A DNA stretch of 20,975 nt from a virus. Location: IMG/VR virus record IMGVR_UViG_3300031141_000530, positions 1 to 20,975 of that record. The stretch is one strand, 5' to 3'. Position numbers and translations under genes: made by a program. The number at the start of each line of letters is the position of its first letter. Position 1 is the stretch's first letter. A model generated the notes under the pieces. It saw only the letters and a list, made by a program, of their open reading frames with translations, was not told where the DNA came from and searched no databases. Of this stretch, positions 3-11,127 are shown piece by piece.

Positions 3-668
3 CCTATTCTTGATGCAGACGGAATGGTTATCAAGTATATCGGCGATGCTTCGATGCACATTCATAATGCTCCAATAGATGATCCACTTCATCCTCATAC
101 TGCTGTTCGTACTGCATTAGATATGATCAAGGCCGTGAAGTCGTTTAATGATCAAGACATCATGCAAGACAGACCTCCTGTAGGAATGGGCGCTGGTGTT
201 AATACTGGATTAGGTTATATCGGAGAGATGGGATCTACTGCAAGGCATTCATATGACATCCTTGGAGACGCTGTATCTACTGCTGCAAGACTTGAGTCTG
301 CATGTAAGTCATATGGTGTACTGCTGATCGTTGGACCAGAGACATACGAGAGAACAAAGAAATCATTCTTCTATCTTAAACTAGATAAACTTGCTGTGAA
401 AGGTAAGACAGTAGGATTGGAGATTTATACTGCATTAGATCTATCATCTAAGATGTTCAGTAGCTCTGTTGATGCTCATGCTGAAATGCACGTTGCTTAT
501 CAAGAGCAAGATTTTGAGATGGCTATTCATTTATGTAAGATGTTACGCGTTAGCTTCTATAGCCAAATGGAAGATTATTATGATATATGGATTGAGCGTT
601 GTAGATATATGATGAAGCAAGACCTCCCAGAAGATTGGGATGGTGTCTTTATAGCAACAACTAAATAG
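3..668 (+). CDS. Class III adenylate cyclase, C-terminal part (5' end outside window)
   Basis: The frame is open to the left edge, so the first ATG (24) is internal. It reads into the second metal-site block (KYIGDA), then GMGAGVNTGLGYIGEMG, then YDILGDAVSTAARLES, the core of the class III nucleotide cyclase domain. Such enzymes convert ATP to cAMP. The adenine-selecting Lys (in KYIGD) and Asp (in YDILG), one metal-binding Asp and the transition-state Arg (AARLE) are present. The usual transition-state Asn is Ser (GDAVS). After the catalytic domain come about 70 helical residues ending in PEDWDGVFIATTK, a tail I know from bacterial membrane cyclases with an N-terminal CHASE2 sensor. That sensor would lie outside the window, so CHASE2 is an inference. 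The next gene starts 9 bases after the stop, so the two are probably co-transcribed. Family assignment is firm; activity is not. Confidence 0.88.
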   Translation, partial: PILDADGMVIKYIGDASMHIHNAPIDDPLHPHTAVRTALDMIKAVKSFNDQDIMQDRPPVGMGAGVNTGLGYIGEMGSTARHSYDILGDAVSTAARLESACKSYGVLLIVGPETYERTKKSFFYLKLDKLAVKGKTVGLEIYTALDLSSKMFSSSVDAHAEMHVAYQEQDFEMAIHLCKMLRVSFYSQMEDYYDIWIERCRYMMKQDLPEDWDGVFIATTK

Positions 669-677
669 GATAATAGC

Positions 678-1001
678 ATGACTAAGAAACTAGCAGCTGA
701 CAGTAAATTAAATGTAGCCGATACTAATGGTGACGGCATCATAACTGATGAGGAACTTGATACTCAGGAACGAATGATACGTCTTGAGAATGAAGATAAG
801 AAAGAAGACGCCCAACGTAATATGGCTTGGTTTGCATTAGGCGGAATGCTATTATATCCATTCGCTGTAGTGATAGCAGTAGTATTTGGTGTAGACAAAG
901 CTGCCACTATCCTTGGAGATATGGCAGGAGTCTACTTTATAGCTGTTGCTGGTATCGTTGCTGCATTCTTTGGTGCTGCTGCATTGAAAGCTAAGAAGTA
1001 A
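678..1001 (+). CDS. Small membrane protein with one EF-hand and two membrane segments
   Basis: This 107-residue protein has a canonical EF-hand calcium loop at residues 15-26 (DTNGDGIITDEE, with acidic or polar ligands at 1, 3, 5 and 12, Gly at 6 and Ile at 8). A charged helical stretch follows (about 28-47), then two hydrophobic segments at about 49-71 and 83-103, and a basic end (KAKK). A good ribosome site (AGGA, 7 bases before the ATG) sits just after the cyclase stop. The topology, soluble EF-hand then a membrane hairpin, would suit a calcium-responsive membrane protein or a holin-like protein. A single EF-hand next to membrane segments also occurs in phage structural or lysis-region proteins. 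I do not recognise the family. Function unknown; the EF-hand and membrane segments are visible, the rest is inference. Confidence 0.8.
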   Translation: MTKKLAADSKLNVADTNGDGIITDEELDTQERMIRLENEDKKEDAQRNMAWFALGGMLLYPFAVVIAVVFGVDKAATILGDMAGVYFIAVAGIVAAFFGAAALKAKK

Positions 1002-4097: not shown

Positions 4098-4126
4098 ATT
4101 ATACTATAGTTTAGACTAAATGTAAA
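4098..4126 (-). promoter_or_regulatory. Sigma70-type promoter of the uvsX unit
   Basis: On the minus strand: TTTACA (4126-4121), a 17-base spacer and a perfect TATAAT (4103-4098). The -35 overlaps the last codons of the upstream dehydrogenase gene, and uvsX starts 35 bases beyond the -10. The spacer holds TTTAG-T-CTAAA, an inverted repeat. It should drive uvsX, gp40-like, gp41 and the two small genes. Confidence 0.75.
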
Positions 4127-4928
4127 CAATATTCTGATCTTTTTCTCGTTTAATCGAATCATATTGTGAACGGATCTTGTTGTTAGATTCAATGACTGCG
4201 TCTAAGATTGGTAGATCATACTCCCAGGCCAATGCCTGTATATCTTTAGGGAAGCATGATCCACCAAAGCCAAGTAGTCCATCTGGTCCTGGTACCTGCA
4301 TATGAGAATTACCTAACCGAGGTTCTGCTGCAATAATAGTTTGGAATGCCATCCAATCACCACCATCGAACTTCTCTCTGATACTATTAAAGAATGCTAC
4401 CTTAGTTGCAAGGAATGTATTGATTGTGTACTTGACCCACGATGCAGTAGCAACGTCTGTTATATAAGTGTGACAAGACTTACAGTCAGACATGATATAA
4501 TACAATTCAGATACTCTTTCACATGCAGCATAATTACCACCGAACACTCTGAACTTAGGATTCAAGAAGTCGTGGAGTGCATACTCTTCCCGAAGAAACT
4601 CAGGATTGTATATAACATTCTCAAATAGCTGAAACATGCTATCAATCTGATCTGGTACAATAGTAGACTTGATTACCTTAACTAGGTATTTGTTCCGCTT
4701 ATGTAACTCAGCTAGAACTTCGTCTATGTTACTAGAGTCCATGCACCCATCTACACTCATTGGTGTGGGTACACATATAAAGACTAACATCGGATTCAAA
4801 GCAACCAGATCATCATAGTTGTTTTCTGGATGAGTTGTTGGATCTAGAATGTACTGCTCTGTATTACTAAATGCAGTAGATACTGTCGATCCAACAAACC
4901 CATTACCAATGATTGCAATCCTAGGCAT
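4116..4928 (-). CDS. UDP-glucose 6-dehydrogenase-like protein lacking the C-terminal domain
   Basis: Family enzymes oxidise UDP-glucose to UDP-glucuronate with two NAD+. Visible: Rossmann motif GNGFVGS (8-14), CVPTPMS (52-58), NPEFLREE (108-115), VKYTIN (165-170) and the catalytic block GFGGSCFPKD (220-229) with Cys225. These are the NAD-binding and central domains. Full enzymes have about 390-440 residues; this ends at 270, about 40 residues after the catalytic block, so the usual UDP-binding third domain is missing. The reading frame ends in a normal stop with a promoter directly after it, so this looks like a stable short form, not a frameshift. I start at the second of two ATGs (4928), which overlaps the epimerase stop by 8 bases. 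Substrate is not certain; GDP-mannose dehydrogenase is a relative. Confidence 0.85.
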   Translation of the reverse strand: MPRIAIIGNGFVGSTVSTAFSNTEQYILDPTTHPENNYDDLVALNPMLVFICVPTPMSVDGCMDSSNIDEVLAELHKRNKYLVKVIKSTIVPDQIDSMFQLFENVIYNPEFLREEYALHDFLNPKFRVFGGNYAACERVSELYYIMSDCKSCHTYITDVATASWVKYTINTFLATKVAFFNSIREKFDGGDWMAFQTIIAAEPRLGNSHMQVPGPDGLLGFGGSCFPKDIQALAWEYDLPILDAVIESNNKIRSQYDSIKREKDQNIVYI

Positions 4929-5856
4929 CATATCGGCCACCTGCTTTCTTATACCATTTAACGAACGATTTAATACCAACCTCAATACCTGTATGAGATT
5001 CCCATCCTAATGATGTAAGGATAGAAGTATCTGCTAATGTCATCTTACTTTCATATTTGTTTGCTTTTTCATATTCAATATTAGCTTTAATACCAGTAAC
5101 ATTCTCTATGATATTAACCATTCTTTCATTAGTAATACAACGTCCTGTACCTACGTTAATGATACTTTCTTTAGGTCGCTGATCGAGTACTAATATTAGA
5201 GCATTAATCAAGTCGTCGATATGAGTGAAGTCTCTGATGTACTTACCATTACCACGTAGAGTAACAGTCTCTTCATTCATAATCTGCTGAGTGAACTTCC
5301 ATAAAGCCATATCAGGACGACCCCATTCACCATATACAGTAAAGAACCTCATACCCCAACTCTTAATAGAAGCCTGATCAAATTGAGATTCATTCACATA
5401 CTTAGACATTGCGTACGGATTAGGTGGCGGATTGAGTACCATGTTCTCTTTGTATGGCTTAGCCGTTGAACATTTGTTCGATGAATATACAGATGACGAT
5501 GATGCATATATTACAGGAATGTTATGTAGAGTAGCGCCATCGATAATGTTCTGAGTACCTACAATGTTATTCATGTAGTATCCAGCAGGCTGTTCAAGTG
5601 AATGCATCACATCAGCATTTGCTGCTAGATGGAAGATAAAGTCAAACATAGAGAAGTCAATACGATCACAGTTGTGTGTGATATCAACTTCCCGTTGGAA
5701 TACTCCTGCTTCTTCTAACAAATCAAATCGCTTGGATCTAATTGCAGAACCATTAATGTCACGATCAACACCTACTACTGTATGTCCTCTGTATGCAAGT
5801 TCAGAACTAACATGATATCCAATGAAGCCAGCTGCTCCAGTTACTAATATTTTCAT
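4921..5856 (-). CDS. NAD-dependent sugar-nucleotide epimerase/dehydratase
   Basis: An extended short-chain dehydrogenase of 311 residues, the normal length. It has the NAD motif GAAGFIG (7-13), FHLAANADV (75-83), the serine-rich strand ASSSSVY (118-124), the catalytic pair YxxxK (Y148, K152 in NPYAMSK) and RDFTHIDDL, all typical of UDP-glucose or UDP-glucuronate 4-epimerases. Next to the dehydrogenase it would fit UDP-glucose to UDP-glucuronate to UDP-galacturonate, but that pathway is inferred from neighbours. Its ATG overlaps the stop of the primase-like gene (ATGA). The sugar could serve host surface modification or phage glycosylation. Confidence 0.9.
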   Translation of the reverse strand: MKILVTGAAGFIGYHVSSELAYRGHTVVGVDRDINGSAIRSKRFDLLEEAGVFQREVDITHNCDRIDFSMFDFIFHLAANADVMHSLEQPAGYYMNNIVGTQNIIDGATLHNIPVIYASSSSVYSSNKCSTAKPYKENMVLNPPPNPYAMSKYVNESQFDQASIKSWGMRFFTVYGEWGRPDMALWKFTQQIMNEETVTLRGNGKYIRDFTHIDDLINALILVLDQRPKESIINVGTGRCITNERMVNIIENVTGIKANIEYEKANKYESKMTLADTSILTSLGWESHTGIEVGIKSFVKWYKKAGGRYDA

Positions 5857-10037: not shown

Positions 10038-10398
10038 TATTCATCCTATTTTTCAATGACTGAATTTGATCTTTACTCAATAAAGACAAAACTTCTTCAG
10101 CACGTTTCTTATTATAATTAAAAGCACTCTTAACAATATCTACATCATTATCATCAACAACTTTATGCCATTTAGAAAAGCGATTTCTCTTCTTGATGGT
10201 ATTTATATAAAAATCAAATTGAAGTCTATTGTCCATATTATGATTGATATTCATCTCATTAGCAAATAGAACAGTATCTAGGTGGTAGGATAACGCTCTA
10301 TTAACAATATAAGGTGTGTATGCTTTCTCAGCAATATCATCAACCATAATGTCTTTCTTACTATAACTTGCAGCCTTAACATAATCAAATGGATTCAT
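10021..10398 (-). CDS. 62: Clamp loader small subunit gp62
   Basis: gp62 joins four gp44 subunits to load the gp45 ring on primed DNA. The 125-residue protein (MNPFDYVKAASYSKKDIMVD...) keeps blocks comparable with T4 gp62: YTPYIVNRALSYHLDTVLFANEMN against T4 YSKFMVENALSQ..AVYAMN, and RNRFSKWHKVVDD against RYGKWAKLVED. The length is shorter than T4 (187), as is usual for marine relatives. I start at the ATG at 10398 because AAGG lies 6-7 bases upstream; the frame upstream merely overlaps the cupin gene. It lies directly before regA as in T4, but is separated from gp44 by four other genes. Confidence 0.88.
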   Translation of the reverse strand: MNPFDYVKAASYSKKDIMVDDIAEKAYTPYIVNRALSYHLDTVLFANEMNINHNMDNRLQFDFYINTIKKRNRFSKWHKVVDDNDVDIVKSAFNYNKKRAEEVLSLLSKDQIQSLKNRMNIGGKQ

Positions 10399-10720
10399 CA
10401 TATACCTTCTTAGTTCTATTGCCCTCAAATACACAATAGAATGTTAACTTGTTCTTAGTCGAGTTATTTATAACTTTATGAAAGATATTTGGCTTAATTG
10501 TGAAAACATCTCCAGGTTTTGCTAAATAGTCAGTATCCTCTATACGCATAACACCTTTACCAGTATGGAATATGTAAACCTCTTCATTAGGATGAGCATG
10601 ACCACGAGTAGTCTGAGCCTGATGTAATTTAGTAAATGAGACAGTCATAGAGTCTAAATCGGTATTATCATCTACAACGTATAACTCATTATTGTAAACA
10701 TTCTTCCATTTATCCATCAT
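10385..10720 (-). CDS. Single-domain cupin
   Basis: The 111-residue protein shows both cupin motifs. Motif 1 is GHAHPNEEVYIFHTGKG with H41, H43 and E47 as metal ligands; motif 2 is PGDVFTIKPNIFHKVIN with H81. All four metal ligands are present, so it should bind a divalent metal. Cupins of this size include sugar-phosphate isomerases and other small enzymes; I cannot pick the reaction. It starts on an ATGA overlap with the cytidylyltransferase and overlaps the gp62 start, so translation is probably coupled. Its neighbour suggests a role in the same small-molecule or sugar pathway; this is inference. Confidence 0.85.
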   Translation of the reverse strand: MMDKWKNVYNNELYVVDDNTDLDSMTVSFTKLHQAQTTRGHAHPNEEVYIFHTGKGVMRIEDTDYLAKPGDVFTIKPNIFHKVINNSTKNKLTFYCVFEGNRTKKVYDESI

Positions 10721-11127
10721 TCTATTTCCATCAATCTGTTACGTAGATCAGAAGAAGAGAACTTATGTTGCCGACTATTATAATACAACTCGATACCCAA
10801 TTCCATACAGAGATCCTTACCAGTGAATTCAATATGCTTATATTCTTCACCTAGTACTCGTACATGAATCTTGAATGTCTCAAGTATATCTTTTAATTGC
10901 TCTTCATTTTCGTAAGGAACAATTTCATCCACATAAGATACTGCAGCCAATTGAATATAACGTTCTACAATGGTTTGTATAGGACTATGCTTCTCAAGAC
11001 GATCGAGCGAAGGATCAATCTGCAATCCCACAATGAGATGATCACATTGTTCCTTCGCTTCACGTAGCATCATGACATGTCCGGCATGGAGCATGTCAAA
11101 TGCACTAGCAGTAAATCCTACTCGCAT
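10717..11127 (-). CDS. Cytidylyltransferase (glycerol-3-phosphate cytidylyltransferase-like)
   Basis: A 136-residue nucleotidyltransferase with the HxGH signature (GFTASAFDMLHAGHVMML, H14 and H17), the R..RY-type block (VERYIQLAAVSYVDEIVPY) and the C-terminal SSSDLRNR (124-131) that corresponds to the ISTT.I..R motif of the TagD family (about 130 residues). These enzymes activate glycerol-3-phosphate or sugar phosphates with CTP. The exact substrate cannot be read from sequence. The gene overlaps the preceding unknown gene by 10 bases and the cupin by 4, within the gp44-gp62 operon. Confidence 0.85.
   Translation of the reverse strand: MRVGFTASAFDMLHAGHVMMLREAKEQCDHLIVGLQIDPSLDRLEKHSPIQTIVERYIQLAAVSYVDEIVPYENEEQLKDILETFKIHVRVLGEEYKHIEFTGKDLCMELGIELYYNSRQHKFSSSDLRNRLMEIE

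Follow-up and report, generated by a model that had tools for sequence, protein, structure and literature searches.

A CHASE2-type membrane cyclase of a curli-type operon in T4-like marine phages with serine in place of the transition-state asparagine

The stretch of DNA analysed here (the window) is the entire 20,975-base virus record, and the open frame at its left end encodes the last part of a membrane enzyme, which probably makes cAMP. The reading we favour, and consider somewhat better than an even bet, is that this is the inner-membrane sensor enzyme of a phage curli-type operon, to which a FecR-domain protein would report and which would switch cAMP synthesis in the infected cell. At the level of sequence, the analysis demonstrated the architecture of the enzyme, the conservation of its operon, strong purifying selection on its catalytic domain and an independent exchange of that domain.

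A cyclase in a T4-like marine phage is not new, since the module has been published (PMC9599517, in its accessible part) and homologues are annotated in Melnitz. That part of PMC9599517 describes a pelagiphage type VIII secretion (curli) module of CsgF, CsgG, CsgA/B, FecR and adenylate cyclase in podo- and myoviruses, and states that the cyclase has alphaproteobacterial relatives. The genes found here, their order and their setting in a myovirus-type marine phage are the same; the accessible text does not, however, name CHASE2, the Asn-to-Ser subfamily, the domain swap or the shared FecR/curlin C-terminus. As far as their accessible text extends, the published accounts of the module do not contain the Ser547 variant, the exchange between sensor and catalytic domain or the FecR/curlin C-terminal motif. 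The earlier PMC7029224 and PMC9004378 both treat the curli genes and leave the cyclase unmentioned; in PMC9004378, Melnitz CsgGF is discussed as a pore linked to lysis, and cells infected with Melnitz are reported not to have clumped under the culture conditions used. An earlier note on this DNA had presented the cyclase as surprising in such a phage, a view that is not supported, given its GenBank annotation in both Melnitz and HTVC008M and the description of the module in the accessible part of PMC9599517.

The complete cyclase and its operon

The frame runs for 221 codons and has no start, being cut by the left end of the contig. It was matched by Pfam Guanylate_cyc (PF00211, 1.5e-13) over profile positions 53-174 of 183 and by PHROG 35576 (8.6e-38) over positions 471-680 of 681; both matches begin inside their profiles, which makes the frame the final third of a larger phage protein. 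The two matches confirm the class III cyclase that the earlier note had read here. The note had also placed the gene in a T4-like phage genome, on the strand opposite to the replication block, and both statements hold: the remainder of the window carries a DnaB-type helicase, UvsX, DNA polymerase, sliding clamp, late sigma factor, tail tube and major head protein, all on the minus strand, with the cyclase on the plus strand. No phage in the collection exceeds 51% identity to the DNA polymerase; Phage C48C1 comes closest, followed by cyanophages. Sugar-nucleotide genes (UDP-glucose/GDP-mannose dehydrogenase, epimerase, cupin and cytidylyltransferase) were seen amid the replication genes, at window positions 4116-5856 and 10385-11127.

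Another contig, L002, matches the window at 99.9% identity across 8,665 shared bases and continues to the left past the window's end, where it holds the complete cyclase of 676 aa (Table 1). An assembly chimera was rejected, as L002 reads through the window edge into the full gene. A join between bacterial and phage sequence, or a missing first catalytic Asp block, had been named in advance as findings that would speak against the cyclase; no join was seen along L002, and the block is present in it (FTDLRGFT, D424). Host contamination was likewise rejected, the relatives recovered from the genome collection by the scan being only phage-like contigs within MAGs.

Table 1. Positions of the features discussed (window coordinates unless marked L002)
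Feature	Position	Strand	Support
CHASE2 class III nucleotidyl cyclase, residues 456-676 of 676	3..668 (whole gene L002 6636-8666)	+	PF00211, PHROG 35576
Lys466, adenine-recognising position (KYIGD)	33..35	+	K in every row of the site table
Asp470, second metal-binding aspartate	45..47	+	invariant
Asp540, second adenine-recognising position	255..257	+	D in 20/20 window-type rows
Ser547, replacing the transition-state Asn (VSTAAR vs VNxAxR)	276..278	+	80/80 window-type loci
Arg551, catalytic arginine, retained	288..290	+	site table
C-terminal helical tail ending PEDWDGVFIATTK	438..668	+	helices 604-659 in the AlphaFold model
107-aa protein, EF-hand loop and membrane segments	678..1001 (L002 8676-8999)	+	PF13202 and PF07332 (Holin_3_6), below cut-off
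FecR-domain gene	L002 5593-6639	same direction as cyclase	FecR 1.1e-8

The leftward extension was examined for the transmembrane (TM) segments and the CHASE2 domain that the earlier note had proposed to look for there, and both are present. The protein encoded on L002 matched CHASE2 (PF05226, 2.5e-38) at residues 15-319 and Guanylate_cyc (PF00211, 2.7e-17), and its AlphaFold model, built with 38 phage sequences (pLDDT 85.6), contains CHASE2, the cyclase fold and a helical tail. TM helices, assigned from the AlphaFold helices together with the sequence, are predicted at residues 8-23, 306-324, 330-352 and 359-391. The order of the parts is one TM helix, a periplasmic CHASE2 domain, three TM helices, a cytoplasmic cyclase domain and the DWDGV tail, and the protein thus has the layout of CHASE2 membrane cyclases, in which one N-terminal TM helix, CHASE2 and three TM helices precede a C-terminal cyclase domain. 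The catalytic part superimposed on the P. aeruginosa CyaB structure with a TM-score of 0.87 of the target and an rmsd of 1.9; the class III fold and profile and the two metal-binding aspartates are all there. An NCBIfam profile search of the cyclase gave nothing useful. The full gene upholds the description of a bacterial-type CHASE2 membrane cyclase, and the tail had rightly been taken as a feature of CHASE2 enzymes: nearly all alphaproteobacterial homologues end in WDG(V/T/A), and the alphaproteobacterial CHASE2 cyclases share the C-terminal tail, while HTVC008M-type phage enzymes are without it.

Upstream of the cyclase on L002, all oriented alike and overlapping slightly or separated by short gaps, lie genes for two small proteins, CsgF, CsgG, a curlin-repeat protein and a FecR-domain protein (Pfam over L002 3761-6639: CsgF 3.8e-15, CsgG 4.9e-44, curlin repeat 2.9e-4, FecR as in Table 1); CsgG begins like a lipoprotein. 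The cyclase is the last gene of this CsgF-CsgG-curlin-FecR-cyclase operon, which cannot be seen from the window because it sits to the left of the contig edge. The gene order of the pelagiphage T8SS-FecR-AC module is present on L002, the window itself beginning inside the cyclase. Among 48 loci of the window's cyclase type (window-type loci) with enough upstream DNA, 43 had FecR and 43 had CsgG upstream on the same strand, and five had neither within the upstream DNA fetched; in HTVC008M-type loci both genes were upstream in 24 of 25. The two small proteins heading the operon (L002 3221-3526 and 3526-3819) are membrane-like and gave no match in Pfam or PADLOC; the accessible part of PMC9599517 places histidine kinase genes at this position.

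The Melnitz cyclase (MZ577098 56217-56873; PMC9004378) is 63.8% identical to the window frame over all 221 aa, lies in the same operon and shares VSTAAR, but its locus has other genes downstream of the cyclase. The cyclase of the Pelagibacter phage HTVC008M has a CHASE2 sensor of the same phage lineage and the same operon, but is of another catalytic type (36.9% identity), with the canonical Asn, Ser at the adenine position and no DWDGV tail.

Immediately downstream of the cyclase in the window is a gene for a 107-aa protein that has a textbook EF-hand loop, DTNGDGIITDEE, and is possibly holin-like. Its relatives are found in Roseobacter, Melnitz and HTVC008M phages, and in the latter two it lies near the tape measure gene on the other strand. 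It was considered as a partner of the cyclase and rejected, as only 5 of 84 loci have it beside the cyclase and elsewhere it neighbours the tape measure gene; it is probably an accidental neighbour.

An active site without the canonical asparagine

In class III cyclases an Asn stabilises the transition state, and this Asn is conserved in the class. The equivalent of position 547 was Asn in all 40 bacterial rows, in 45 of 45 further bacterial motifs (read by eye) and in 79 HTVC008M-type loci; in the window type the catalytic arginine is retained and the Asn has given way to Ser, so that by homology this type would form a divergent subfamily. The earlier note had passed over this substitution. 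The metal aspartates D424 and D470 are invariant in the rows compared, and within the window type Lys466, Asp540 and Arg551 are invariant along with them. All 40 bacterial and all 19 HTVC008M-type rows have S or T at position 540. The changes that mark the window type (D465I, A474H, F475I, W476H, N530E, S540D, N547S and L548T) are grouped around the active site. A bacterial source of the Ser variant was rejected: when 398 Pseudomonadota genomes were scanned for GDxVSTAAR, the only hits were the phage contigs of a contaminated MAG and one GDAVWTAAR.

The remodelled site is under strong constraint, as indicated by a median dN/dS of 0.044 for the catalytic domain (CHASE2, 0.11). The loss of the Asn could reduce the cyclase rate strongly, and since the active site is remodelled in several respects (Asn to Ser, the Lys/Asp adenine pair and an HIH hairpin) the rate of the window type may differ from that of standard enzymes. 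Mammalian adenylyl cyclases read adenine with a Lys and an Asp; because the window type carries this same pair, ATP is most likely its substrate. The subfamily offers a natural test of whether the Asn is essential, being a conserved and strongly constrained class III cyclase that lacks it.

Sensor, output domain and FecR

The sensor and catalytic halves of the phage cyclases gave conflicting trees. In the CHASE2 tree the HTVC008M type was nested inside the window type, near Melnitz, and a single window-type clade was rejected (AU p 0.0015); in the catalytic tree the window type formed one clade (100/100), and a CHASE2-like grouping was rejected (AU p 5e-5). The deeper order of the catalytic tree was not used, because long branches were flagged. 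An identity scan showed the same pattern: Melnitz-like and HTVC008M-type enzymes share 0.45-0.71 across residues 1-320, the CHASE2 sensor, and 0.29-0.46 beyond residue 386, whereas Melnitz-like and other window-type enzymes share 0.21-0.41 before and 0.67-0.90 after the swap point. This point is sharp, at residue 385/386, on the exit from the last TM helix. As judged from these comparisons, the histories of sensor and catalytic domain differ, and output domains have been exchanged on one sensor lineage.

Across 53 distinct loci, FecR distances correlated with CHASE2 distances (r 0.80; partial r 0.50 given CsgG, permutation p 0.0005) and not with those of the catalytic domain (r 0.39; -0.01 given CsgG); CsgG and CsgF distances likewise correlate with FecR. 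Linkage explains part of the FecR-CHASE2 co-variation, since the CHASE2 half lies closer to FecR than the catalytic half does. The swap and the co-variation together predict FecR as a ligand of CHASE2, the signals of which are described as unknown in PMC5192318. That study describes a Burkholderia biofilm operon in which a periplasmic FecR-domain protein occurs together with a CHASE2 histidine kinase, so that the association of FecR with CHASE2 recurs irrespective of the output domain.

The model of FecR has a signal helix and a beta domain predicted with confidence (27-184); its C-terminus is rich in strands but of low confidence. A C-terminal strand-x-strand-x-Gln motif was found in the FecR frame of 78 of 79 loci (the remaining frame is cut) and in the first curlin frame of all 79, as compared with 39 of 1,108 other frames of at least 120 aa; the end of FecR on L002 (5593-6639) is an example. 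A link by HMM from curlin C-termini to FecR was weak (16 FecR, E<10), and for this reason only the short motif is claimed. The motif was not apparent in the bacterial FecR C-termini inspected, which come mostly from large frames and vary in quality. Its presence hints that FecR may join the fibre or share the curlin export signal.

Proposed role and bacterial relatives

In the mechanism we propose, the FecR-domain protein would partner the CHASE2 sensor in the periplasm and would report curlin export, or the state of the fibre system, to it; the sensor would then switch cAMP synthesis in the infected cell, and the cAMP would act on host receptors. Its target is placed on the host side because a phage receptor was not found: 22 phage records, including the complete Melnitz and HTVC008M genomes, contained no cNMP-binding protein (PF00027). 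S. meliloti provides a precedent for outer-membrane proteins acting on CHASE2 cyclases: there, cAMP rises once a barrel in the outer membrane senses a protein from outside (PMC13001267). CyaD1, CyaD2 and CyaK of that species resemble the phage enzyme in that they are CHASE2 cyclases tied to an outer-membrane protein (NsrA), and they make cAMP; they differ in being chromosomal, in sensing a plant protein and in acting via the CRP-type regulator Clr. If the proposal is true, abundant marine phages supply their streamlined hosts with an envelope signalling circuit; curli are absent from Pelagibacter according to the accessible part of PMC9599517. A more elaborate version, which we think rather unlikely, is a modular envelope sensor in which FecR, bearing a curlin-like C-terminal strand, would tie curlin export to CHASE2, and in which the output domain would have switched between a canonical cyclase and one confined to phages, whose active site is rebuilt (Ser for Asn) and whose kinetics or product would depart from those of known class III enzymes.

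One possible objection is that the enzyme is dead or very slow, and serves as a signalling scaffold or nucleotide-binding switch that makes little cAMP. The absence of the Asn from every window-type locus, the remodelled hairpin and the clustering of the substitutions at the active site would fit such a role, but none of the window-type rows departs from the two metal aspartates, Lys466, Asp540 or Arg551, the catalytic domain is under tighter constraint than the sensor, and it has been retained while sensors were exchanged; we therefore regard loss of activity as unlikely. A plain cAMP pulse that resets CRP-family regulation in the host, with the curli genes as mere neighbours, appears less likely still. 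It would agree with the largely preserved active-site set and with the lack of a phage receptor, by which any cAMP must act on host receptors; yet the operon order with FecR and CsgG holds in both phage cyclase types, and FecR varies together with the sensor; these observations speak for a linked function.

Least probable, and in our view very unlikely, is a role in conflict, whereby the product would saturate or trigger host cyclic-nucleotide defence, or the cyclase would belong to a phage-borne Pycsar-like system directed against competing phages. PADLOC PycC models do match the cyclase domain (3.4e-14; HTVC008M, 9.8e-25), but they also catch ordinary class III domains; the FecR, small-protein and EF-hand neighbours had no match in PADLOC, and a CHASE2 sensor and a curli operon are not Pycsar parts. 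No adjacent receptor effector of the PycTM or PycTIR kind was found, the 22 records being without PF00027. Pyrimidine-specific base-recognition residues were also absent: Lys466 and Asp540 are kept, and Lys466 differs from the residues at the CTP (Arg) and UTP (Asp) positions, as mapped here from the residue numbers in PMC11224242. The CRP reset and the interference with cyclic-nucleotide defence suggested in the earlier note thus found no direct support, with neither a cNMP-binding protein among the 22 records nor a Pycsar effector; what stands of that reading is the CHASE2 cyclase, the T4-like phage, the opposite strand and the tail.

In the Alphaproteobacteria, relatives that span the full profile and carry the WDG tail are common, with a cyclase match at E<1e-70 in 92 of 240 genomes, and a FecR-domain gene lay near the cyclase in 9 of 20 neighbourhoods; in these 20 the phage CsgG query had no match. 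These CHASE2 adenylate cyclases are like the phage enzyme in their full-length homology, their DWDGV tail and the FecR gene often nearby, but carry the canonical Asn and FDYSVLGD, and do not stand beside CsgG in the genomes sampled. A bacterial curli-cyclase operon was accordingly rejected: although the cyclase family occurred in 92 and CsgG in 32 of the 240 genomes, the two were by coordinates never less than 20 kb apart except on the phage contigs in the MAG G001, the nearest other pair being separated by about 29 kb. In this sample the linkage of curli genes and cyclase is thus a phage trait, in agreement with the accessible part of PMC9599517. Phage-type cyclases were also seen on three contigs of the MAGs Rhodobacteraceae Water_Bin34 and Pirellulales BS30m-G48 (L084, FZLS01000092; L085, FZLS01000023; L086, JADHSL010000081), with FecR upstream in each and CsgF/CsgG in addition on L084 and L085; these contigs are a probable phage contamination of the reference genomes.
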